A program made the translations under genes and the position numbers. Positions 2,922 through 13,226 of a stretch of 59,286 nt of DNA are shown here, in pieces; the stretch's first letter is position 1; every line of letters starts with the position of its first letter. The stretch is taken from the NCBI RefSeq assembly GCF_000239275.1, contig NZ_JH417567.1:6510-65795 (forward strand), in the 5' to 3' direction. Origin of the DNA: Megasphaera geminata F0357 (lineage in GTDB: Bacteria; Bacillota; Negativicutes; Veillonellales; Megasphaeraceae). The notes below the pieces were generated by a model. It saw nothing but the letters and a program-made list of their open reading frames with translations, did not search any database and was not told the DNA's origin.

Positions 2922-3318
2922 TTACTCGTTGATCTGCCGGCGGCCGTAACATTTTCCTCCAATACGGACTATGCAACCGGAGTCCTTCAGCGTATTGGTA
3001 TATTTCTGAACAATTCTCCGTATTGTCCCAAGTCTTTCTCCCAAGGCTTCCTGTGAAATATCCGGTTCTTCTCTTAATATTTCTATAAGCCTAAGTATCA
3101 TTGTACATTCCAAAGCACTGTCATTATCAGTGCTTCGGTGCATCGGGCTAAGCAATTAGCGCACTTTTAAGTGCCTTAAAACACAAGTGGATGCCATTTC
3201 CCAAATCCTCATAGCCAAGCAAGTCCGTCCCAAGTGCGCGACACTCATCGCAAATCTTCTGAATTCCGCGCCCCTATCTCTCTATGTAATCCATTCGGTA
3301 ACATACATTCGCAATGTC
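2922..3318 (-). pseudogene. C-terminal remnant of AlbA/RecG-like ATP-binding regulator
   Basis: Reading the minus strand from 3318 gives DIANVCYRMDYIER, a TAG stop, then GRGIQKICDECRALG and GNGIHLCFKALKSALIA. This is the C-terminal part of the ATP-binding AlbA_2/RecG-like (Schlafen-type) regulators, where the stop replaces a normally conserved tryptophan. After a second stop, and in another frame, comes a winged helix (ILREEPDISQEALGERLG, then IVQKYTNTLKDSGCIVRIGG) that normally ends the same protein. The ATP-binding domain is absent. One nonsense codon, one frameshift and a missing N-terminus make this true decay. It abuts the 3' end of the hydrolase gene with almost no spacer. Confidence 0.7.
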
Positions 3319-3342
3319 AGGCAGTTCAATTTTGTCTCCGTC

Positions 3343-4104
3343 TTACCTATGTGTCAGCATTTTGAACCTGACGGCCAATTCCTGCGGATACAGCGGCACC
3401 ATACTGCCATGTCCGCAATTCCTTATCTTTATTAATTTTGTACCGGAAAAATGCCTTTTTACGTATTGGATATCCCATGCGCGGTCTTTCTCTTCTTTAT
3501 CCCCGTACCAATATTCCAGATGGCCGGAAATTTCCGGCACCGGGTCCGGCATCTTGTAATTATTGCAGGATTCAAAAGTACGCCAGATTGTCTTATAGCT
3601 CATAAAACGAAGCACCCCGGACAAGTACTCCAAATCTTCTTTACTGTACTCATCTGCGGAGAACGCCTTTTCCAGAATCTTCAGCCCGCCCGCTTTAGCC
3701 ACGGATACCATCATAAAATCTCTGACGGCGATAAGACGGGTGATGAGCCATGGCAGCTGATAAGGCGTGATGGCTCCATCTGCAATCGCATTCTTAACGC
3801 GGACCTTGTGATCCGCCAGCATCCTGAGTACTACGCTGCCTCCCATAGAGCAGCCATACAGTATATCAACATCTTCTATTCCTTTTAATACAAGATAGTC
3901 CGATATCCGGGCGGAAATATCCTCAACGCTTGTAAAATCTTCATTCGGCGCTTCCCTGTCATAGCCGGGAAGCGCCGGAATAATCAGATGAAAATCTTCG
4001 CAAAGAAGCGGGCAGACGCGAGAAAAATAATCCCATGTGACTACAGAAGGATGAATCAACACTATGTTTCGATTATTTTGCTTGCCGTATTCATGAAACG
4101 TCAT
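3343..4104 (-). CDS. Alpha/beta hydrolase
   Basis: The 253-residue product is a single-domain alpha/beta hydrolase. The nucleophile elbow is GCSMGG (serine near residue 86), the catalytic histidine lies in NCGHGS near the C-terminus, and the acid is probably the aspartate in WYGDKEE. The oxyanion region is the early LIHPSVVTWDYFSRV. There is no signal peptide, so it is cytoplasmic. The ATG at 4104 is preceded by GGGGGG about 5 bases upstream. The substrate is unknown; related proteins act on small esters or amides. It stands alone between a pseudogene and a degenerate stretch. Confidence 0.75.
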   Translation of the reverse strand: MTFHEYGKQNNRNIVLIHPSVVTWDYFSRVCPLLCEDFHLIIPALPGYDREAPNEDFTSVEDISARISDYLVLKGIEDVDILYGCSMGGSVVLRMLADHKVRVKNAIADGAITPYQLPWLITRLIAVRDFMMVSVAKAGGLKILEKAFSADEYSKEDLEYLSGVLRFMSYKTIWRTFESCNNYKMPDPVPEISGHLEYWYGDKEEKDRAWDIQYVKRHFSGTKLIKIRNCGHGSMVPLYPQELAVRFKMLTHR

Positions 4105-4175
4105 GTCATCCCCCCTTTTCTCATCTTTTAGACCCTATTCCTCATAACATAGAAAAATTATCCTGATAAACTTAA

Positions 4176-4410
4176 TTACAGCAAAGTACATATTCCGGCG
4201 ATTCCGAGAGAAAGCAGAAGAAATATAACGAGCCATTTCAAAAGCCAACCGAAAATTGTTTTCTGCGAGGGTAACCCGCTCTTATGTTTCGTTTTACGAT
4301 TCAGACAATAAACCTTATCAGCAAAATGCTTCCTGTCTGCGCAAGTGAGAAAAGTGTACCCATGACGAACGGCCGCCGCAGAAAGTGTTCAAAATGTCCA
4401 ATATGTTATG
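4176..4410 (-). pseudogene. Degenerate membrane-protein fragment
   Basis: Between the hydrolase and the acyltransferase there is no intact gene, but the minus strand shows protein-like text in two frames: FVMGTLFSLAQTGSILLIRF, then a stop, and in the next frame KTIFGWLLKWLVIFLLLSLG ending at 4176. The pattern suggests a decayed hydrophobic protein with a frameshift. I cannot name the family. The rest of 4105-4528 shows nothing I can support. Confidence 0.3.
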
Positions 4411-4528
4411 AGTATATGAGTCAGTCAGAATGTAGGATTACAATTGAAGGATCACGCTGCATATGTTACACCGGGGACTTTACTTTGTTTCCATTTATTG
4501 AACTGCCGCCGTTCTGTTTTATCACTAC

Positions 4529-5566
4529 TTACTTCAGCCAGCGAATACATCTGGTCGGATAAAAAATCAATTCTATTACGGCTATTTTCTTCGTGAGATA
4601 ACAGGCAATAACTGAAATTAACCAGGCAAGAAGGGTGACACCGACTATCATCAAGAAATAATCGGCAATCCCCGCTTTGACAAATACTGCCCTTATAGCA
4701 GATACGGCGGGAGCATGCACCAGGTAAATGATTAGAGAATCACGGCCGTACTTTCTAAAATAATTATGTATACGATTCTCCCTGAAATTAGAATAGATGT
4801 AGAAAAACACAGGAATGCTGGCCATTTTTGAAACAAATGTAACAAAAGTTAAGCCGTTTGTATCATACCGGTTTTCCCCACCGAATTGAATTTGCATGAG
4901 CCAGGATATTAACATAATCGTGAGTGCCGCGATAAAACTTTTGTTATAGGAAAAAGTTTTATGTTCCTTTATCAAGCGGCCGAAATTAAAAGTTACCGCC
5001 CATGTAAACATCAAATGCAAAAAAGCGGGAAATTCAATTAAGGAAGCCGCGACAAAGAGAATCAAACTGATACCGAATTGAACTTGCACATTGAACTTAC
5101 ACAGATCCAGAAAGTCGCTCAGTATATAAATTAAGACCAAAGCATATATATACCACAAATAGCTGATTGGGTGAGCAAAGATACCTAATAAGTCAGACCA
5201 CGGATGAACAGCGTGTGTTGAACTTTCCGGAGAAAGATTTTGCATAAACACATACGCTGCTGAAAATATAATATAAGGAACAGCCAGGCTTACAATTCGT
5301 TTGAGCATATTTTTCCCATATTCCTCCCGGTTCTTAACTTCTTTATAAACAAGACCGGATAACGCAAAAAATATAGGCATAATGAAAGTAGCCAATAAAA
5401 ATATCGTCCATTCTCCTACTTGCTGCTCTCCCCGGGCGAACACATTAGCATCATGCACACTTTTAAAGGCATGATAGATAACTACAAAAAGGATAGTCCA
5501 TCCTTTCGCCCAGTCAATCCAGTCTATGCGGCCTTGTTTATCTGTTAAGACTGTACTTTTATTCAT
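4529..5566 (-). CDS. Acyltransferase family 3 membrane protein
   Basis: The 345-residue product is a multi-pass membrane acyltransferase of the Acyl_transf_3 (OafA/fucose-4-O-acetylase-like) family, which usually moves acetyl groups onto cell-surface sugars. The N-terminal signature is DWAKGWTILFVVIYHAF, with the family's conserved histidine. It is followed by FALSGLVYK and about ten hydrophobic segments. I chose the ATG at 5566 (MNKST), with TTGAGGA 6-7 bases upstream; a TTG at 5578 overlaps that site. The acceptor is unknown. No polysaccharide genes flank it, so it may be a leftover of a larger locus. Confidence 0.75.
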   Translation of the reverse strand: MNKSTVLTDKQGRIDWIDWAKGWTILFVVIYHAFKSVHDANVFARGEQQVGEWTIFLLATFIMPIFFALSGLVYKEVKNREEYGKNMLKRIVSLAVPYIIFSAAYVFMQNLSPESSTHAVHPWSDLLGIFAHPISYLWYIYALVLIYILSDFLDLCKFNVQVQFGISLILFVAASLIEFPAFLHLMFTWAVTFNFGRLIKEHKTFSYNKSFIAALTIMLISWLMQIQFGGENRYDTNGLTFVTFVSKMASIPVFFYIYSNFRENRIHNYFRKYGRDSLIIYLVHAPAVSAIRAVFVKAGIADYFLMIVGVTLLAWLISVIACYLTKKIAVIELIFYPTRCIRWLK

Positions 5567-5966
5567 GAATATCCTCAACCTTTTATAGGAAATTTACCGA
5601 TTTCATCACATCTGATGTGTAGTTTATCATGCCTGTCCCCCTCCTTAAAACCCTTCACCACGGAAGGCTGTATCAATCAACAACTGCACTATCGTCTTTT
5701 CCTGAGTGTTCCCTAATCAGTACGAGCCGTTTTTCCATACTGAGAGTATTTCCTTCTTTCCAAGAAACCACAGGTAATTCTTAAACCAATTTTACTTCAT
5801 CCGCGACATCAAGGCCACGCACTCGACATGTGATTCATTGTCCAAACTCAATTCATACCCCTATCCAAAAAGAGTTCCTCTTCAACTTCACCATTCACAT
5901 AAGAACATCTTTTCCCTGTCAAATTTTACCTTTTTTCTTCATTGTATTATGAATGTTTTTAATGTT
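5567..5966. other. Gene-free stretch containing the distal att-like motif
   Basis: No intact gene is visible in this 400-bp AT-rich stretch. Its main content is the rlmD-end-like motif at 5811-5830 and short unclassified reading frames. Confidence 0.4.
5811..5830 (-). other. Putative attR: displaced 3' end of rlmD
   Basis: On the minus strand this reads as SHVECVALMSRMK followed by a stop, which is what the end of an uninterrupted rlmD gene looks like. The core CATGTCGAGTGCGTGGC is shared, with one change, by 6747-6766, and partly by rlmD itself at 9268-9283. I read it as the far attachment site of an element that inserted into rlmD. The role is inference. Confidence 0.5.
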
Positions 5967-6378
5967 TTACAAATATTCCTTTTCTACCGGCGCCAAGTTC
6001 TGTACCTGATATTCCCTTATATTCTTCAGTTGCTTTTTCGATTGCCTGCTTATGATTAATCGTCCCAGGACTCTGCAACACTTTTTCACCTGTAGTTTTT
6101 AAAACATTATCAAGGTACTTCACATAATCTGATATATACTACATATAGGCATGGCGCATAGCCTGAATTTCCGCAAAATCAAAGCGACCTGATACAACAA
6201 TAGACTCACTACTCTTGAGAGCATAGTCAGCACTTGTTGCATAAAGGTTAAATACTTGTCGATACATAACTTTTTCTGACGAGCGGATATCTCGAATGCG
6301 GTCTAATAACTCTTTCCAGTAATTATCACCACCCAGATTTTTCAGTCTCTCATCATCCATTGTAAAGACTTTTACCAT
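5967..6378 (-). pseudogene. RhuM-family protein remnant
   Basis: The minus strand reads MVKVFTMDDERLKNLGG, then DRIRDIRSSEKVMYRQVF and NLYATSADYALKSSES, the signature block of RhuM-family proteins (virulence-associated, often in restriction-modification islands and mobile elements). It then jumps to VSGRFDFAEIQAMRH, which in intact proteins lies about 70 residues further on, so an internal deletion is visible. Later segments DYVKYLDNVLKTTGEKVLQ and EYQVQNLAPVEKEYL lie in other frames, ending at 5967. The N-terminus is missing. With several frameshifts and a deletion, this is genuine decay. Confidence 0.75.
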
Positions 6379-6597
6379 GTACTCTTTTAAGCGTTTAGTA
6401 GCTCATCACCGAAAATTTGTAGAAATTTTAGATTTTACTCTAATCACCTTTGAATTCTTTGTGTTGCAAGTTACTGCAACTTAAATTTTCTATTGTAAAG
6501 CTTCATTCTATGGTATTCACGAAAAATTTCTACCCATAAAAATCATATTTTGCAACTTACTACTCATTAAGTTCCCAAGATCCATCATTTCCAGTGC

Positions 6598-6766
6598 CTA
6601 CATAAGATCAGTACCTTGAATCTATACTTTTCAAACACATAATTTTGAATTTGTTTATAAATAGCTTTACTCTCTGCACTTGTTAAGTCCATTTCATCAA
6701 TCGGAAACTCTGCACTTATATGCTTTTTGAGTCCAGTTTGGAGAGTAGCGCCACGCACTCCACATG
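6598..6766 (-). pseudogene. Second copy of the RlmD tail module, with att-like start
   Basis: The minus strand reads HVECVALLSKLDSK, then (one base shifted) KHISAEFPIDEMDLTSAES and KAIYKQIQNYVFEKYRFKV. This is the extra C-terminal module found after RlmD in many Clostridia, and it parallels the tail after rlmD at 8959-9216. It starts with the att-like core at 6747-6766 and lies directly behind the recombinase remnant, as expected for an element boundary. It is truncated and cannot encode a functional protein. Confidence 0.65.
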
Positions 6767-6892
6767 CCTTGAGACCCCATTATGAATGTCAAAAGTAAAC
6801 GGAAATATATCTAAAATTATGCAGTAACAGCAAAAATATCATTATGTATATTTTATCATAGAAATACAAAAAGGCCCGTAGTTTTATCCTAT

Positions 6893-7613
6893 AGGCTCTA
6901 AAAAATATTCGCTCTATATCTCCACTTTCAGATTGAAGTCCAGATTTAAATTCAACAACCGCTTTATTATCATATATGGTTATTTTTTCAATAAGCCTTC
7001 TAACCAGCGTATCTGAATACTCTGTAATGGCTCGTGTCTGCTCTTCAAAAAAAGAAAACATATCATTTATTCTTTTCTGAAGTTCTATGTTTTTTCTTTT
7101 CTAAGAGCTATGATTTCCTCTCCGATTTCATCAATTATTTTTTGTTCTTCACCTGCCTCAAGAAGTTTTATCTGTAGGGTCCTTTATCTTCATTTCCAAC
7201 TTTTCCAAGCTTTCCTGTGCATCTTCATTTATAACCTCCCGAATACTCTCCATCAATATAGGAATGGTTTCATCTTTTTATTAAATGTATCATTTATTGC
7301 CGTAAGCACTGCTGCCTGCAAATCTTCCTCCCTTATCGTTTTAGCTGAACAAATCAATCCCAATTGTTTTATTAACCCGGCACACACACCTCCAAACCGT
7401 TGATTTGCATCCTCTGTTATTCCATTTTATTCTGCGGAATATATCTCCACAGTGACCACAAAAGACTATACTGGACAAAGCGTACTTTGAACCATAAATT
7501 CTTTTCTTTCCACCACTAAGTATATTTGCTCTTCTGTTAATCTCAGCTTGAATTCTTAAAAACACATCTCTATCAATAATTGCATCATGACCGCCTACTT
7601 TTGAATAATCCAC
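6893..7613 (-). pseudogene. Large serine recombinase, C-terminal remnant
   Basis: The first reading frame gives [40 protein letters not shown] and [20 protein letters not shown]: the recombinase and zinc-ribbon domains of a large serine recombinase, with the cysteine pairs visible. Further segments continue in shifted frames: [20 protein letters not shown], then a coiled-coil part, then FFEEQTRAITEYSDTLVRRL and EKITIYDNKAVVEFKSGLQS near the C-terminus. The N-terminal catalytic domain with the nucleophile serine is absent. Enzymes of this kind integrate conjugative elements, and their genes usually sit beside an att site, as this one does. Confidence 0.85.
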
Positions 7614-7650
7614 TTAATATTCCCATTCACATTCCTCCTAATTTTTTGCA

Positions 7651-7681
7651 AAGAAAAGCACCTACCTTTCTTAGTAGATGC
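7651..7681 (-). terminator. Terminator after the toxin gene
   Basis: On the minus strand GCATCTAC and GTAGGTGC form an 8-bp stem with a 7-8 nt loop, followed by TTTTCTT. It lies just downstream of the RelE-like gene. Confidence 0.65.
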
Positions 7682-7710
7682 CTTAATCTAGTTAACATAT
7701 TTTTATACGG

Positions 7711-8034
7711 TTACAGTTTTTCCAACTGTCTTGCCTGATCCATTTTTACATAGATAACAGCAATAATTTGGACTTCTTTCTTGTTATTATCAATCCAAAA
7801 GTAAATATAATGATTTTTTACTCGAATTTTTCGAAACCCTAAATCTTGCCACGGTTTTTCATCAATACACTTAATACGATGTGGCATAGTTTCCAAAGAG
7901 CGCATCTCGGATTTCAACAATTCAAGCATGTTCTTCGCAATACCGGGTTCTTTTAATTCTGTAGCAATATATTCTCGTATAAGTGTAAGATGCTCTTTTG
8001 CTTGTTTTGTAAGCTTTATCTTATACTTATCCAT
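7711..8034 (-). CDS. RelE/ParE-family toxin
   Basis: The 107-residue product (MDKYKIKLTKQAKEHLTLIREYI) has the RelE/ParE toxin fold signature: an N-terminal helical pair, a central DLGFRKIRVKNHYIYFWIDN strand region and a C-terminal VQIIAVIYVKMDQARQL. RelE toxins cut mRNA on the ribosome and ParE toxins act on gyrase; which applies here is not certain. The start codon overlaps the antitoxin stop (TGATG), so the two are translationally coupled. Both genes appear intact although everything around them is decayed, which is common for addiction modules stranded by an element. Confidence 0.8.
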   Translation of the reverse strand: MDKYKIKLTKQAKEHLTLIREYIATELKEPGIAKNMLELLKSEMRSLETMPHRIKCIDEKPWQDLGFRKIRVKNHYIYFWIDNNKKEVQIIAVIYVKMDQARQLEKL

Positions 8035-8336
8035 CACAGCTCTTTCTCAAGTTCTTCAAAGACATCATCTATATCATAAGAATCTCCTTGAATTGCCTGT
8101 GCGTAGCCATTTGCCATTAGTGAATTAAAAGCTTTTTCATCCATATTTTCTCTTACCAGTAAATTTTTAGGTATCTTCAAAGAAAATGGAATTCCATTAT
8201 TTAAGATTATCTGTCTATAAAACATATCAATTGCTGTAGCTCTGGGAATGCCTATGGTATCTAAAATTTGTTCAGCCTGTTGTTTTATATTTTCCTGTAT
8301 TCTCACATTTATATTTGCGGTTTTAGTAAGTGCCAT
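8034..8336 (-). CDS. RelB/DinJ-family antitoxin
   Basis: The 100-residue product (MALTKTANINVRIQENIKQQ) starts with a ribbon-helix-helix domain typical of RelB/DinJ, including IGIPRATAIDMFYRQIILNNG. It ends with an acidic toxin-binding tail (DIDDVFEELEKEL). I chose the ATG at 8336, which has GGAGGG upstream; an alternative GTG at 8345 overlaps that site. The antitoxin would repress its own promoter and neutralise the downstream RelE-like toxin. Confidence 0.8.
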   Translation of the reverse strand: MALTKTANINVRIQENIKQQAEQILDTIGIPRATAIDMFYRQIILNNGIPFSLKIPKNLLVRENMDEKAFNSLMANGYAQAIQGDSYDIDDVFEELEKEL

Positions 8337-8505
8337 GTCAATCACCCTCCTTTGAGGATATTATGCAATATTGTATCGCGTTTTGCAATACATACCGCTC
8401 ATATAAAAAGTATCTCTCTGCTATCATAGACATTCTCTGTATTTTGATTACCACATTTAACGGCTCTTTTATATGGAAGTAACGATTCTATATAATTAGT
8501 AGTAG

Positions 8506-8574
8506 GCATATGAGATCGCATCCTTTCTTTAGGACTTAGACACTTTTATTGTAAAGCATGCGAGTCTCATATGC
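8506..8574. repeat. Imperfect inverted repeat
   Basis: GCATATGAGATCGCAT (8506-8521) and ATGCGAGTCTCATATGC (8558-8574) are inverted copies differing by one extra base, 36 bases apart. They lie in the gene-free strip between the Mod remnant and the antitoxin gene. They could be an operator, a long hairpin or a transposon end pair. Confidence 0.5.
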
Positions 8575-8584
8575 TTTTCTTTGC

Positions 8585-8623
8585 AAAAAAAGAATGCTGA
8601 AGTCAGCATCTTTCGATGCCGAC
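8585..8623 (-). terminator. Terminator-like hairpin after the Mod remnant
   Basis: The minus strand carries GTCGGCATC-GAAA-GATGCTGAC, a 9-bp stem with a tetraloop, then TTCAGCATTC and seven T residues. It stands directly after the broken methyltransferase reading frame. Confidence 0.6.
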
Positions 8624-8629
8624 CCCAAC

Positions 8630-8952
8630 ATTTATTATAGAACCTAAATTCTTCAAAATTTCAAGCCTTGGCTTCATCAATGACAACCAAGTGCTATGCT
8701 CTAAATTATCATCGTAATGCTCAAATGCTGATACCGTATTATACGGCGGATCGATATAGATACACTTAACCTGTCCTGCATACTTGCTCTCCAATGCTTT
8801 CAAGGCAAGCAGTTATCTCCGTGAATAATCATATTTTCCGTATTCCGGTCATTTGTGCAGTTGGATTTTTCTTTGTCTTCAATCAAAATCCTCGGCTCTA
8901 TTTTTATTTCTTTCTCTTTACCAAGCCAGGTAAGCTCTAACTTGTTTCCCAT
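8630..8952 (-). pseudogene. Type III restriction Mod (DNA methyltransferase) fragment
   Basis: From the ATG at 8952 (AGGAGGG upstream) the frame reads MGNKLELTWLGKEKEIKIEP and reaches NMIIHGDNCLP. A one-base shift then follows, and the frame continues LKALESKYAGQVKCIYIDPP YNT. That is the N-terminal part of a Mod-type adenine methyltransferase with motif IV DPPY. It also shows EHYDDNLEHSTWLSLMKPRL, then runs out at a terminator. The target-recognition domain and the Res subunit are absent. It begins 7 bases after the stop of the rlmD tail, suggesting one transcript. Confidence 0.75.
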
Positions 8953-8958
8953 TTTTTC

Positions 8959-9175
8959 TTATCCCTCCTGCACTATCATCCCAAAATGCTTCAGTGCATC
9001 CATGATAGCCTCTTCTTTTTCTTTCGGACACACCGGCACTACATAATTGTCCTTCTTGGATTTATTGTAATTTTCTCCAAGCTCAAGTCCACACTTCCTC
9101 TTAATTTGAGCTATATAAAGCGTTGAAACCTTAAAGCCATATTTGCCAAGGATATAATTCTTTGGTATTCTCATA
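8959..9175 (-). pseudogene. Out-of-frame C-terminal tail of RlmD
   Basis: Just past the point where rlmD stops, a different frame continues with NYILGKYGFKVSTLYIAQIK, RKCGLELGENYNKSKKDNY and VCPKEKEEAIMDALKHFGMI. This is the tail module commonly fused to RlmD in Clostridia. The two frames can be joined by a one-base change around 9160-9175. The module probably reached this position with the integrated element and is paralleled by the fragment at 6598-6766. Confidence 0.65.
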
Positions 9176-10624
9176 AGTTCCTTTATTTTCCGCCTTGGTA
9201 ACATCTTCCTCGTCAAGCTCCAATTTTACCTCAATACGGCTGTCGATATCTTTCCTGCACAAAAGTGCTACCGCCTCCACATGATGGGTCTGGGGGAACA
9301 TGTCAACAGGCCGGATTTTTTCGGTTTTGTAGCCTCTTGTTCTCATGTAGGCCAGGTCTCTTGCCAGGGTCGCCGGGTTGCACGATACGTAGACAACGCG
9401 CTTCGGTTTGACGCTTGCAATGGCGTTCAGGACTTTTTCTTCACAGCCGGCTCTGGGCGGATCGATGACAATGACATCGGGTTTTATGCCGCTTTGCAGG
9501 AGTTCCGGCAGTTTGTATGCCGCATCGCCGCACGTGAAATGGGCATTGCGGATGCCGTTGTCTTTCGCGTTTTTAACGGCATCGCGAACGGCCGGCTCGA
9601 CGATTTCTATGCCGTATACGTACCTGGCCTGTTTTGCCAGGAAGAGGGTGATCGTCCCCGTGCCGCAGTAGACGTCGACAACCGTTTCTTTGCCGGTCAA
9701 ATTCGCATAGGACAGGGCCGTTTCGTAGAGTTTTTGTGCCTGTTCACTGTTGACCTGGAAGAAGGATTGAGCCGATATGCGGAAATTCAGGTCACCGATG
9801 GAGTCGGAAATGGTCAGGCTTCCGTATATGACCTTCGTCTTATTACCCAAGATAACGTTCGTATGGCGCGTATTAATGTTTTGCATGACGCTCGTAAGGC
9901 CCGGCACTTCTTTGCGCAGCATGTGTACGAGGTCCTTCATATGCGGTACGACGGGCACGGCCGTGACGATACAGACCATGATTTCTCCCGAATGGACGCC
10001 CGTTCGTCCCATAATATGGCGGACAATACCCGTTCTCCTGTCTTCATCATAGGCGGGAATCTTATAGTCCTTCATCCACTGCCGCACGACGGGAATGATT
10101 TGATTATTTCCGTCTTTTTGTATGGGACAGGCATCGATATCAATAATACGATGAGACTTTTCAGCAAAGCAGCCGATGTGAACGGTCTTCTTTTCGCCCC
10201 CTACGGGAAGCTGCATTTTATTTCTATAGTTCCACGGCCGATCGGAACCCAAGGTCGGTAAGACGGGAATATCTTTCAGCTTACCGATATGCTCTACGGC
10301 ATCCTTCACCTGCCTCTGTTTTTCCACCAGCTGCCCTTCATAAGAAAGGTGCTGCAACTGACAGCCGCCGCAATCGGCATAGACCGGACAAGAAGGCTTC
10401 ACGCGATGAGGTGAAGCCTTCTGTATGCGCTCCGGCCGGCCGACGGCATACTGCTTTTTTACATACGTAATACGTGCCGTCACGGTTTCTCCCGGCAGGG
10501 TCCCGTCGACAAAGACCGTGAAATTTTCCACCCGTCCTACACCTTCGCCGCCTGCACCGAGCCTTACTATATCAATGGTATATGTTTTCCCCTTTTCCAC
10601 AGGGATCTTGAATTTCTCCGCCAT
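9131..10624 (-). CDS. rlmD: 23S rRNA (uracil-C5)-methyltransferase RlmD
   Basis: This 497-residue RumA/TrmA-family enzyme makes 5-methyluridine in 23S rRNA using S-adenosylmethionine. It shows an N-terminal TRAM domain (about 1-62), an iron-sulfur cysteine set (C79, C85, C88 in CPVYADCGGC and a later DACPIQ), the SAM-binding VVDVYCGTGTITLFLA, DPPRAGC, and the nucleophile cysteine in VVYVSCNPATLARDL. The ATG at 10624 has GGGAG upstream. It lies 12 bases after pdp, so it probably shares that operon. The catalytic part is intact, but the C-terminus after HHVEAVALLCR is altered: it runs into an element-derived tail that is frameshifted. Confidence 0.9.
   Translation of the reverse strand: MAEKFKIPVEKGKTYTIDIVRLGAGGEGVGRVENFTVFVDGTLPGETVTARITYVKKQYAVGRPERIQKASPHRVKPSCPVYADCGGCQLQHLSYEGQLVEKQRQVKDAVEHIGKLKDIPVLPTLGSDRPWNYRNKMQLPVGGEKKTVHIGCFAEKSHRIIDIDACPIQKDGNNQIIPVVRQWMKDYKIPAYDEDRRTGIVRHIMGRTGVHSGEIMVCIVTAVPVVPHMKDLVHMLRKEVPGLTSVMQNINTRHTNVILGNKTKVIYGSLTISDSIGDLNFRISAQSFFQVNSEQAQKLYETALSYANLTGKETVVDVYCGTGTITLFLAKQARYVYGIEIVEPAVRDAVKNAKDNGIRNAHFTCGDAAYKLPELLQSGIKPDVIVIDPPRAGCEEKVLNAIASVKPKRVVYVSCNPATLARDLAYMRTRGYKTEKIRPVDMFPQTHHVEAVALLCRKDIDSRIEVKLELDEEDVTKAENKGTYENTKELYPWQIWL
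9268..9283 (-). other. Putative attL inside rlmD
   Basis: CATGTGGAGGCGGTAGC encodes HVEAVA near the RlmD C-terminus. It matches in position and partly in sequence the motifs at 6747-6766 and 5811-5830. I read it as the near attachment site of the element scar. Confidence 0.45.
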
Positions 10625-10636
10625 GACAACTCCCGT

Positions 10637-11944
10637 CTATCCTTCTATGACTTCCCCGATTACAGACTCTTCTTCTACGTTTTTGCCCGCTTCAATGTGA
10701 AAGGCCTTACGAATGCGTTCCTCATAAGGCCTTATATCCGTACGTGCCGCAGCATAGACCGTACAGAGCGGGTCTCCTTCCGCTACGGTATCGTAAATCT
10801 CCTTATGAAGGGCAAGACCCGTATACAGCTCGATAGGGTCTTCCTTGCGGGCCCTGCCGGCGCCCAATTCCATGGCAATGGCTCCCAGGCCGCGTCCGTC
10901 GACGGCTGTAACGACACCGCTCTTTTCGGCTCGTATTTCACGCGTATTGACAGGCTCCGTCAGAGAGCGTACGCCTATAAAGGACGCATCGCCCCCCTGG
11001 GCTTCCAAAAAATCTTTGAATTTTTTAAGTCCCGAGCCGTCGTCGACATGAGCCTGTAAGATAGCCTTGCCTTCTTCTACGTTAGCCGCTTTTCCGGCGG
11101 CCTTCAGCATGTAGGCACCTATAGTGAGGACCACTGCCGTCAGCCTCTTACCGCCCGTCCCCGAAAGGACCTGAACGGCTTCGTCGATTTCCAGGCTGTT
11201 GCCGATACTCATGCCCAAGGGCGCATCCATGGACGTAAGGACGGCCGTCGTCGGTTTTCCGGCAAGTTTACCGATGCGCACCATGGCCCGGGCCAGTTCT
11301 TCAGCTTTCTTGCGAGTTTTCATAAAAGCGCCGTCGCCGTATTTTACGTCCAGGACGATGGCCTGTGCTCCGCCGGCCAGTTTTTTGCTCATTACGGAAC
11401 TTGCAATAAGGGGAATGCTCTCTACCGTTCCCGTTGTATCACGAAGAGCGTACAAGAGCTTGTCCGCCGGCGCCAGTTCCGCCGACTGGCCGATGACGGC
11501 GATGCCGATTCGATTTACTTGGTTAAAAAATTCGCCTTTTGTCAAGGATATGCGAAAGCCCGGCACGGATTCCAGTTTATCCAGAGTCCCGCCCGTAAAA
11601 CCCAGGCCTCGGCCGCTCATCTTGGCCCCCTTTACGCCTGCCGCCGCCACGAGAGGCGCCGTAATGAGGGTCGTCGTATCGGCGATGCCTCCCGTGCTGT
11701 GTTTATCTACTGTAATGCCCTTTATGGGCGACAGATCGACGACTTCCCCCGAATCGCGCATGGCCGTCGTCAATGCCGCCGTTTCTTCATCATTCATGCC
11801 CTTAAGATACACGGCCATGAGCCACGCCGCCGCCTGATAATCCGTCACGTTTCCCTGCGTATACTCTTTTATAAAGCGGTTGATTCGAAACGCGCTGTGC
11901 TCTTTACCGTCCCTTTTTTCTTCTATAAAGTCTACAGGCCACAT
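10637..11944 (-). CDS. pdp: Pyrimidine-nucleoside phosphorylase
   Basis: The 435-residue product splits uridine, deoxyuridine or thymidine with phosphate into the base and (deoxy)ribose-1-phosphate. The family signature KHSTGGIADTTTLITAPLVA, the glycine-rich MSGRGLGFTGGTLDKLES and the phosphate-binding region are intact. The length matches bacillar Pdp (about 433). It lies 3 bases after deoB, which converts the resulting sugar-1-phosphate to the 5-phosphate, so the two form a nucleoside salvage operon with rlmD. The choice of Pdp over thymidine-specific DeoA rests on length and Firmicute context. Confidence 0.88.
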   Translation of the reverse strand: MWPVDFIEEKRDGKEHSAFRINRFIKEYTQGNVTDYQAAAWLMAVYLKGMNDEETAALTTAMRDSGEVVDLSPIKGITVDKHSTGGIADTTTLITAPLVAAAGVKGAKMSGRGLGFTGGTLDKLESVPGFRISLTKGEFFNQVNRIGIAVIGQSAELAPADKLLYALRDTTGTVESIPLIASSVMSKKLAGGAQAIVLDVKYGDGAFMKTRKKAEELARAMVRIGKLAGKPTTAVLTSMDAPLGMSIGNSLEIDEAVQVLSGTGGKRLTAVVLTIGAYMLKAAGKAANVEEGKAILQAHVDDGSGLKKFKDFLEAQGGDASFIGVRSLTEPVNTREIRAEKSGVVTAVDGRGLGAIAMELGAGRARKEDPIELYTGLALHKEIYDTVAEGDPLCTVYAAARTDIRPYEERIRKAFHIEAGKNVEEESVIGEVIEG

Positions 11945-11947
11945 AGT

Positions 11948-13126
11948 CTACCTCAGTTCTGCCAAAAACGACGTGCCGAATGCCAGCGTCCCCGCGTCAA
12001 AATTATCCATAACGGTCTGTCCCAGATCCGCATAGGTTTTGCGCGTTCCCAAGTCCGTACTTTGCGTAAGGCCCGGGCTGTACACGACGAGGGGGACTTC
12101 TTCACGCGTATGGTCCGTGCCCGCCGCCGTCGGGTCGTTGCCGTGGTCGGACGTGATCAGGAGCAGTTCATCTTCCCGTAGCTGCGGCAAAAATCCACCC
12201 AACATGGCGTCGAAGTCTTCAAGGCATTGCGCATACCCGGCGGGATCGCGGCGATGACCGTACATGCTGTCAAAATCGACGAAATTGGCCATGAGAAGTC
12301 CTTCCGTGTCTCTGTGACGCAGGAGTTCACGTGTCAAAACCTCCATGTCTTCCCGATTGTTCGCCGTGTGGTAACTTTCGGTCAAATCGATATGAGCATA
12401 AATATCGCCGATTTTACCGACGCCTACGACAGCATACCCCTTTTCTTTTAAATACGAAAAGACCATCTTTCTGTCGGGCAGGCGGCTGTAGTCCTGTCTG
12501 TCGCCGGTACGGACAAATTTTCCCGGCGCGCCCACGAAGGGACGGGCAATGACGCGGCCCACTTCATACGGGCCGACGCATACTTCCTTACGCGTCACTT
12601 CGCAAATGTGATAGAGCTCGTCCAGCGGGATGACGTCCGTATGAGCGGCAATCTGAAAAACGCTGTCCGCCGACGTATAGACGATAGGATTACCCGTCTT
12701 TATGTGTTCGGGCCCGAGGCGTTCAATGATTTCCGTTCCCGACGCCACTTCATTGCCGAGCCAGTCGCAGCCGGTCTTTTCCGTAAAGGTGTCGAGCAGC
12801 TCCTGCGGAAAGGCGTCATAAAATACGGGAAAGGGATTTTCCACGGGATTACCCATAAATTCCCAGTGTCCGCTCGTCGTATCCTTGCCGTTGGAAATTT
12901 CCCGCATTCTGCCGTATGAGCCGACGACGGCCGTACCGGTCGGGCGGATATGGGCCGCCTTTTCCCAGCCGAGACGGCGCAGGTTCGGCACCTTGAGTCC
13001 GCCCGGTACAGCTTCATCAATATGTTTCAGCGTGTCCGCACCGGCATCGCCGAAGCGGTCCGCATCAGGCGCGCCGCCGGCGCCGACACTGTCCGTAACG
13101 ATAACGACAATCCGTTTAAATTTCAT
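11948..13126 (-). CDS. deoB: Phosphopentomutase
   Basis: The 392-residue enzyme interconverts ribose- or deoxyribose-1-phosphate and the 5-phosphate using a two-manganese site of the alkaline phosphatase superfamily. It shows the metal-binding VIVTDSVGAGGAPDA at the N-terminus, the phosphorylated-threonine region GKDTTSGHWEFMG and the C-terminal LLITSDHGNDPTAAGTDHTR. I chose the ATG at 13126 because GGAGGCGGGACA precedes it; an upstream in-frame codon at 13171 adds unrelated residues. It is the first gene of the salvage operon. Confidence 0.92.
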   Translation of the reverse strand: MKFKRIVVIVTDSVGAGGAPDADRFGDAGADTLKHIDEAVPGGLKVPNLRRLGWEKAAHIRPTGTAVVGSYGRMREISNGKDTTSGHWEFMGNPVENPFPVFYDAFPQELLDTFTEKTGCDWLGNEVASGTEIIERLGPEHIKTGNPIVYTSADSVFQIAAHTDVIPLDELYHICEVTRKEVCVGPYEVGRVIARPFVGAPGKFVRTGDRQDYSRLPDRKMVFSYLKEKGYAVVGVGKIGDIYAHIDLTESYHTANNREDMEVLTRELLRHRDTEGLLMANFVDFDSMYGHRRDPAGYAQCLEDFDAMLGGFLPQLREDELLLITSDHGNDPTAAGTDHTREEVPLVVYSPGLTQSTDLGTRKTYADLGQTVMDNFDAGTLAFGTSFLAELR

Positions 13127-13226
13127 TGTCCCGCCTCCTTCAAAACAATCCGGGTATATCGAAATATTCAAATTAAGCAGCTACTGCCGACGATCCCCGC
13201 CGCCGTCTTCTTTTTTAACAATGCCG

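Follow-up and report, generated by a model that had tools for sequence, protein, structure and literature searches.

A scar of site-specific elements in the 3’ end of rlmD

A stretch of 59,286 nt from the genome of Megasphaera geminata F0357 (the window; G000:C8:6510-65795 in a 1.8-Mb assembly of 57 contigs) carries three copies of a short motif from the 3’ end of the rRNA methyltransferase gene rlmD, one of them within rlmD and two further downstream, with broken genes in between. This raises the question of how rlmD-derived sequence came to be repeated behind its own gene. The evidence at all three joints supports an element scar with a middle junction in the rlmD 3’ end, and we consider it very probable that two or more, probably three, site-specific elements sharing one attachment core inside rlmD collapsed into this segment. 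The scar region as defined here lies between the rlmD joint and a short rlmD end (5831-9283, about 3.45 kb) and has a G+C content of 34.8%, compared to 54.1% in the rlmD-deoB block (9284-13171). The locus represents an insertion hotspot of a known kind in a decayed state; it indicates that joints at the rlmD site stay readable long after the cargo has been lost, and that phage-like elements and elements bearing a C-terminal tail can pile up at this site.

Exchange of the 3’ parts of rumA and of the integrase gene has been described for streptococcal integrative and conjugative elements (ICEs) inserted in rumA (Ambroset et al., PMC4701971), and accretion of integrative and mobilizable elements, ICEs and decayed elements at shared sites has been reported (PMC5357655). 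With the streptococcal ICEs and decayed ICEs that have a single serine integrase in rumA, as these are described in PMC4701971, the scar shares the target gene, direct repeats, a right attachment site (attR) inside the integrase gene and the 3’ exchange. It differs from them in consisting of joints and scraps, with no conjugation gene found among the scar open reading frames (ORFs) that were scanned, in having two classes of large serine recombinase (LSR) in tandem, and in its host, which is not a Streptococcus. Several elements at one site and deletion as a later step are common to the scar and to the tandems of PMC5357655, whereas in the account given there 9 of 10 tandems sit at rpsI, rpmG or rplL and have tyrosine integrases, decayed ones with serine integrases being merely mentioned. 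Insertion of CTn5 in Clostridium difficile 630 delta-erm, where rumA is fused to CD1844A, likewise makes a hybrid RumA protein, but according to that report CTn5 is intact, mobile and present in a single copy (PMC4320837). Both accretion and the 3’-end exchange at rumA have been published before; what appears to be new here is that the core encodes the catalytic Glu of RlmD and that pneumococcal RlmCD is an apparent hybrid with an element tail.

Repeats and half-sites at the three joints

The first-pass annotation of this DNA had noticed the three motif copies from the sequence alone, and they are confirmed as a repeat family (D1; copies at least 71% identical to the reference copy) at 5811-5830, 6747-6766 and 9264-9283. 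The cores within these copies, the direct repeats and two associated half-sites are as follows:

9275-9283, minus strand: core of the left attachment site (attL), CATGTGGAG (codons HVE), from the repeat search; its Glu is the counterpart of E443, the general base in pneumococcal RlmCD
6758-6766, minus strand: middle core, CATGTGGAG, joint between a phage-like end and tail 2, from the alignment to locus L211
5822-5830, minus strand: attR core within the 5792-5830 end, from the repeat search and the comparison of LSR ends
6750-6766, minus strand: left 17-bp direct repeat of the tail 2/RhuM element (16 of 17 bases)
5814-5830, minus strand: right 17-bp direct repeat of the same element (16 of 17 bases)
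9294-9304, minus strand: half-site GAYATRTTYCC (rlmD codons for DMFP), one of only two occurrences in the window
6801-6811, minus strand: half-site GATATATTTCC in the right arm of the phage-like element, from the motif search

All three HVE cores look like real recombination joints. The 17-nt pattern CATGTSGAGTGCGTGGC, searched with up to 3 mismatches, matched twice in the 59,286 bases, exactly and at the two direct repeats, where 0.16 matches were expected by chance and two matches were obtained in 1 of 100 shuffled sequences; the rlmD-borne motif copy is more divergent and lies outside these matches. Direct repeats are present at the rlmD 3’-end joint, as in serine-recombinase elements integrated in rlmD/rumA.

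The half-site GAYATRTTYCC occurs once at the site in rlmD itself and once 34 bp ahead of the middle core, two occurrences also being seen in 4 of 100 shuffles. Among the loci compared it was present within 90 bp before the core in 15 of 32 rlmD sites, 10 of 54 other sites and 0 of 45 LSR sites, versus 9 of 5000 random 90-mers. Upstream of the tail core, five loci (L021, L032, L042, L046 and L061) have element ends in which DMFP-like half-sites follow one another two or three times, and in the first four the 140 bases compared from this upstream region look alike across different species. Such serial half-sites may serve as landing pads for the next element.

The left joint grafts a foreign tail onto RlmD

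Two features make up the left joint:

9131-10624, minus strand: rlmD, a 497-aa ORF consisting of native RlmD up to HVE (residue 450), then 47 foreign tail residues and an early stop (TIGR00479)
8974-9283, minus strand: tail 1, element-encoded and grafted on rlmD, with the frame broken near 9160 (likeness to the rlmD-tail of L022)

In the NCBIfam scan RlmD matched TIGR00479 with 532 bits over residues 22-450, the last of which is the Glu of HVE. Because the frame of tail 1 is broken near 9160, RlmD stops after 47 foreign residues, and the remainder of the tail sits in ORF 8959-9216. The two pieces were identical to the rlmD-tail of L022 at 36 of 42 and 52 of 63 positions, so that, as in L022, this attL shows an element-encoded replacement of the rlmD 3’ end. 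By comparison, the RlmDs recovered from the same genus in a search of 14 other genomes end 7 to 17 residues past HVE, and the tail is present in 0 of 12. The 85-aa tail ORF was found in 1 of 17 family genomes, namely the genome of the window itself. Upstream, the gene order deoB-thymidine phosphorylase-rlmD (names by eye) is also found in G008.

The island behind the rlmD with the nearest tail (L022, 10210-14938) contains a type IIG restriction-modification gene and an AbiEii gene; the rlmD site also collects defence genes.

The middle joint lies between a phage-like LSR end and a second tail

The following features meet at the middle core:

6914-7613, minus strand: 3’ part of an LSR of phage-like type, frame broken (L211 alignment; PF13408; phrog_95 integrase)
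6767-6913, minus strand: right arm of the phage-like element (continuous alignment to L211)
6603-6766, minus strand: tail 2, an allele distinct from tail 1, truncated at about 6603 and with a broken frame (69%, 29/42, to L142; 61%, 25/41, to L024)

Window positions 7591-6758 aligned to the end of the last LSR ORF of L211 (IMGVR_UViG_2642422560_000004) with 724 of 868 columns identical (83%). The alignment spans the end of the LSR gene and about 147 bp of arm and terminates at the 9-bp core (6758): identity amounted to 19/20 just before the core and 9/9 within it, then to 10/20, 5/20 and 8/20. Beyond the core, L211 continues as HVETVVLMSKVR-stop and the window as the second tail. LSR, arm and core are shared between the two, whereas L211 still has LSR ORFs and an endolysin-like ORF (by eye), and its core leads into a short rlmD-like end. 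Tail 2 was identical to L022, the nearest relative of tail 1, at 19 of 40 positions.

By its 83% identity to L211 and its match to phrog_95 the integrase end is of prophage type. Phage structural or lysis genes were absent from the Pfam scan of nine scar ORFs. The LSR fragment also matches 11 Enterococcus plasmids, over 29% of the fragment length among the matches listed. Two further candidates from the comparison were rejected: G086 (L163, L171, L236), which at first resembled a phage carrying this LSR type within rlmD, was set aside as evidence for rlmD targeting because host-looking genes follow its rlmD, and in G042 (L162) the LSR type lies near and not in an rlmD paralogue.

The right joint lies within a second-class LSR gene

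At the right joint two features are fused in frame:

5831-5860, minus strand: last codons (GYELSLDNES) of a second-class LSR, in frame into the core (L184 comparison)
5792-5830, minus strand: attR, consisting of the core and the short rlmD 3’ end HVECVALMSRMK-stop (RlmD ends of relatives; LSR-end comparison)

The window here reads GYELSLDNES-HVECVALMSRMK-stop. When the comparison was anchored at the core, 26 of 33 bases (5822-5854) were as in L184, a value reached by 1 of 118,506 window positions, which is the site itself; the references for this comparison had been picked after the joints were seen. A test of 11 residues against the LSR ends of other loci, which used loci collected earlier, agreed in direction and gave a score of 28, reached by 2 of 80,779 open 33-mers with the site included. 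Concordantly, 6 of 8 LSR genes examined read LDN, three residues, VE and a short end (L175, L176, L179, L180, L181, L184); of the remaining two, L177 has its stop immediately behind the core, and in L178 the core itself is altered. The core-anchored match and these parallels place attR inside an LSR gene. The LSR codons directly before the 5822-5830 core, as well as an ISL3-like insertion sequence (IS) end at about 8464-8644, are features beyond those of the first-pass annotation.

The second LSR class also closes off a conjugative element that sits in the rlmD of Peptoniphilus indolicus (L176), at its distal end and about 41 kb downstream of the tailed rlmD; P. indolicus is the one case in which this LSR was positioned relative to the tailed rlmD. 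Of the 32 tailed-rlmD genomes or loci, 12 were searched with a tail-less LSR query; 9 gave a match, and none was found in L038, L052 and L070.

The short end at 5792-5830 had been read as the natural end of the gene. A host origin is indeed likely, but tail-less element ends look alike, so the short end alone is no proof. Several of the short ends after the LSR genes examined are left ends of further elements and not host ends. It is accordingly conceivable, though in our estimate unlikely, that 5792-5830 does not represent the host rlmD end but the left end of an additional element without a tail. Tail-less ends with similar codons do exist (L176, L178, L180, L237), and the region downstream is without a match in the genus. 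However, the ORFs downstream of the end are host-like (autotransporter-like, hydrolase and acyltransferase; by eye), and 1.4 kb from the end onward gave no blastn match (E up to 1e-3) to 21 other ends.

Number of elements and formation of the tandem

Three joints, two tail alleles, two LSR classes and an IS end can be read directly from the locus. Since the tails represent distinct alleles and the LSR ends fall into two classes, at least two elements were involved; the three cores together with these alleles and classes delimit units with distinct ends, as in tandem accretion. The earlier count of one or two elements has to be raised to a minimum of two, with three as the probable number. Accretion would be unnecessary if one element had duplicated its left end and core internally, which would fit the finding that only one direct-repeat pair (6750-6766/5814-5830) is nearly perfect. 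This is most improbable, given that the tail alleles differ and are each closest to another relative and that the LSR is phage-like at the middle core and of the other class at attR.

Within the reading of at least two elements, the count of exactly two is a special case, in which one element would extend from tail 1 to the middle LSR and the other would be the tail 2/RhuM element. We regard this count as possible but somewhat doubtful. In its favour, record G427 has a tail close to one of its ends and, close to the opposite end, an LSR with 53% identity to that of L211; yet its LSR is followed by an apparent tail-less element end (by eye), so that the record may hold more than one element, and the LSR behind L022, which is nearest to tail 1, is only 28% identical to the phage-like query.

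The element scar in rlmD and its middle junction, as proposed in the first-pass annotation, are borne out at all three joints, and less decayed tandems occur at sites of this kind elsewhere. In the IMG/VR loci L101 and L102, LSRs (48% to that of L211), cargo, core and tail follow each other in the order of the scar (by eye); in L101 the tail is followed by an ORF that resembles the P. indolicus ICE coupling protein (by eye), and the L102 record ends before that point. P. indolicus itself (G413:C1:481000-527000) has two similar element left regions in tandem behind a tailed rlmD (by eye), the first of which encodes a coupling protein, a topoisomerase, RepA_N and a CD1107-like protein according to Pfam. 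As to the composition of the tandem, the postulated middle junction is supported, but the LSR at the middle core is phage-like and differs from the one at attR, where the last codons of another LSR class are found.

In the course of events that we infer, a tail-bearing element would have its own site inside the 3’ part of its LSR gene, and integration would swap the 3’ ends, so that the C-terminal tail of the LSR passes to RlmD at attL and the short rlmD end passes to the LSR at attR. Later elements would then enter at an existing joint. With the order of arrival and number of elements assumed here, the resulting tandem would read (tail 1-mod ...)(phage-like ... LSR-arm)-core-(tail 2-RhuM ... 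second-class LSR)-attR. Insertion of an IS in mod, deletions and frameshifts may subsequently have removed almost everything, whichever the exact deletion route; the RlmD core and catalytic Glu are still present, followed by 47 foreign residues, and RlmD presumably continues to function.

Several observations weigh against this interpretation. An empty site joining both flanks, which the first-pass annotation had named as the decisive test, was not found, and the downstream flank (3300-5830) matched none of the 14 further genus genomes. The middle LSR type was compared in 24 IMG/VR loci. In 4 of these the available sequence contains a core-like stretch behind the LSR (L211 and L232 within 0.2 kb, L227 at 4.7 kb, L231 at 5.1 kb), in 11 the 2.2-5.5 kb that follow contain none, and in 9 at most about 0.5 kb follows; a link of this LSR type to the rlmD core is seen but not throughout, and the type need not always target rlmD. 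Unanchored comparisons were not significant, either of the DNA before the middle core (13 of 200 shuffles) or of DNA and protein before attR (22 of 200 shuffles; 674 of 2630 windows); significance was reached in the tests fixed at core and reading frame and in the L211 alignment. The left end of the L211 element lies outside its record, so that tail 1 and the phage-like LSR may stem from one element or from two. Furthermore, some of the short RlmD ends of relatives are possibly element ends themselves (L002 and L009 share 200 nt at 87.5%, and L012 is similar to L180, an element joint), and in G008 the genes behind rlmD look restriction-like (by eye).

The core covers the catalytic Glu, and pneumococcal RlmCD resembles a tailed hybrid

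The general base of pneumococcal RlmCD has been identified as E443 (PMC5614603; PMC6235398). Counting back from residue 454, the end of the 5XJ1 chain (...HHVETVALLSKLDVD), E443 is the Glu of HVE. The core therefore covers the catalytic residue, which the element restores, and the attachment site is conserved because the HVE Glu is the catalytic base of the enzyme.

The 5XJ1 chain aligned with the tailed S. mitis protein L027 without gaps through and past the joint, with identical residues there (HHVETVALLSKLDVD). L027 comprises 543 aa from the Met aligned with 5XJ1 residue 1, and the same length of 543 aa is given for full-length pneumococcal RlmCD (PMC6235398). On the grounds of this gapless match across the joint and the equal length, RlmCD of Streptococcus pneumoniae (SP_1029, PDB 5XJ1), as judged from the 454-residue chain and the protein length, very probably carries an element tail. 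It differs from the RlmD of the scar in that its tail is apparently unbroken and the enzyme was shown to be active (PMC5614603, PMC6235398). RlmCD cut within the tail (1-454) was reported to be about 25% more active than the full-length protein in an assay on U747 RNA, and self-inhibition by the C-terminal region was suggested by the authors (PMC5614603). The words integrative, integrase and mobile are absent from the main texts of PMC5614603 and PMC6235398. The rlmCD region is described as the most common target of Tn1207.1-type insertions (PMC8321556).

The tail domain across genomes

The tail survey covered the best 80 of 139 relatives in genome contigs, as 79 loci, together with 39 IMG/VR loci and 1 plasmid record (L021-L139). 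These contain 133 tail places, of which 32 are behind rlmD, 45 are in frame at the C-terminus of an LSR, as decided by a scripted motif rule, and 56 are elsewhere. An open frame of at least 400 aa precedes the tail in 29 of the 32 rlmD fusions (exceptions L036, L073 and L085), and the spacing is near-fixed at the tail joints compared. The tested tail copies had no Pfam family and matched phrog_27283, the function of which is unknown in that database. A search of the PDB by sequence gave no confident relative of the tail (best E 0.041, a ribosomal protein, judged to be a chance hit), and 153 bases of the rlmD tail were without a match in the phage collection.

The simplest reading of these sequences is that the tail would be an LSR domain encoded beyond the attachment site of the element and handed to RlmD on integration. 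As a tentative extension, integration, by cutting the tail domain off the recombinase and grafting it on the rRNA methyltransferase, might constitute a built-in switch between integrating and resident recombinase with a side effect on ribosome methylation, pneumococcal RlmCD being such a hybrid. Repeated passage of a recombinase domain to an rRNA methyltransferase at the codon of a catalytic residue makes the effect on RlmD and on the recombinase directly testable, and we rate this tail transfer, which emerged as a side result, as more important than the scar itself.

In five loci (L088, L089, L090, L094, L095) the same tail domain forms the C-terminus of an LSR without VETV core that precedes a second LSR, an arrangement suggesting that the domain does more than serve site exchange. 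Tail relatives were also found in 96 plasmid records, 90 of them from Enterococcus and 95 below 60% identity; among the plasmid matches listed, 19 of 20 were at 40.5%, and the annotation was hypothetical protein or none.

Cargo remnants, insertion sequence and decay

Between the joints the following remnants were found:

8645-8952, minus strand: mod fragment, N-terminal part of a type III-like DNA methyltransferase with a broken frame, reaching up to the start of the IS (PADLOC PDLC03636, E = 7.7e-28 and 6.2e-12)
8464-8644, minus strand: one end of an ISL3-like IS, the rest lost (81-91% to five other places in the genome)
8034-8345, minus strand: RelB/DinJ-type antitoxin ORF, open (TIGR02384, 63.6 bits, above cut-off)
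7711-8037, minus strand: RelE/ParE-type toxin ORF, open (PF05016, 43.7 bits, above cut-off; TIGR02385, 23.5 bits, below the cut-off of 27.9)
5925-6441, minus strand: RhuM fragment, frame broken, N-terminus missing (PF13310, E = 9e-22; tblastx to L143, L144 and L151)

Profile scans found the tail, the Mod fragment, the RelB/RelE pair, the LSR zinc-ribbon fragment and the RhuM fragment as originally described. The remnants gave no sign of conjugation genes, which were seen in the relative P. indolicus: relaxase, coupling protein and VirB4 were absent from the Pfam scan of nine and the NCBIfam scan of eight scar ORFs, shorter ORFs not being scanned. Frames are broken in RhuM, in both tails and in the LSR, and integrase sequence is present as 3’ fragments with broken frame only. 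The RelBE stretch had no match in the plasmid collection.

The tblastx similarity of mod ends at 8645, and complete relatives are present in L165 and L166. The adjoining IS, which we take to belong to the ISL3 family, is represented at the scar by one end only, without transposase or second end. Its terminal sequence GGTTCTATAATA was compared among the copies, and the BLAST matches run to 8653. Five further ISL3-like ends are present in the genome (L015-L019 on G000:C51, C46, C25 and C45), the fullest being L016 with two transposase ORFs. A perfect 19-nt inverted repeat (7642-7660/8572-8590) flanks the RelBE pair, one arm lying inside the ISL3-like end; among L015-L019 only L015 shares it, at the IS place matching 8572-8590. 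Outside the scar, a match of about 41 bp (86%) connects 4390-4431 with G000:C51 near an ISL3-like copy.

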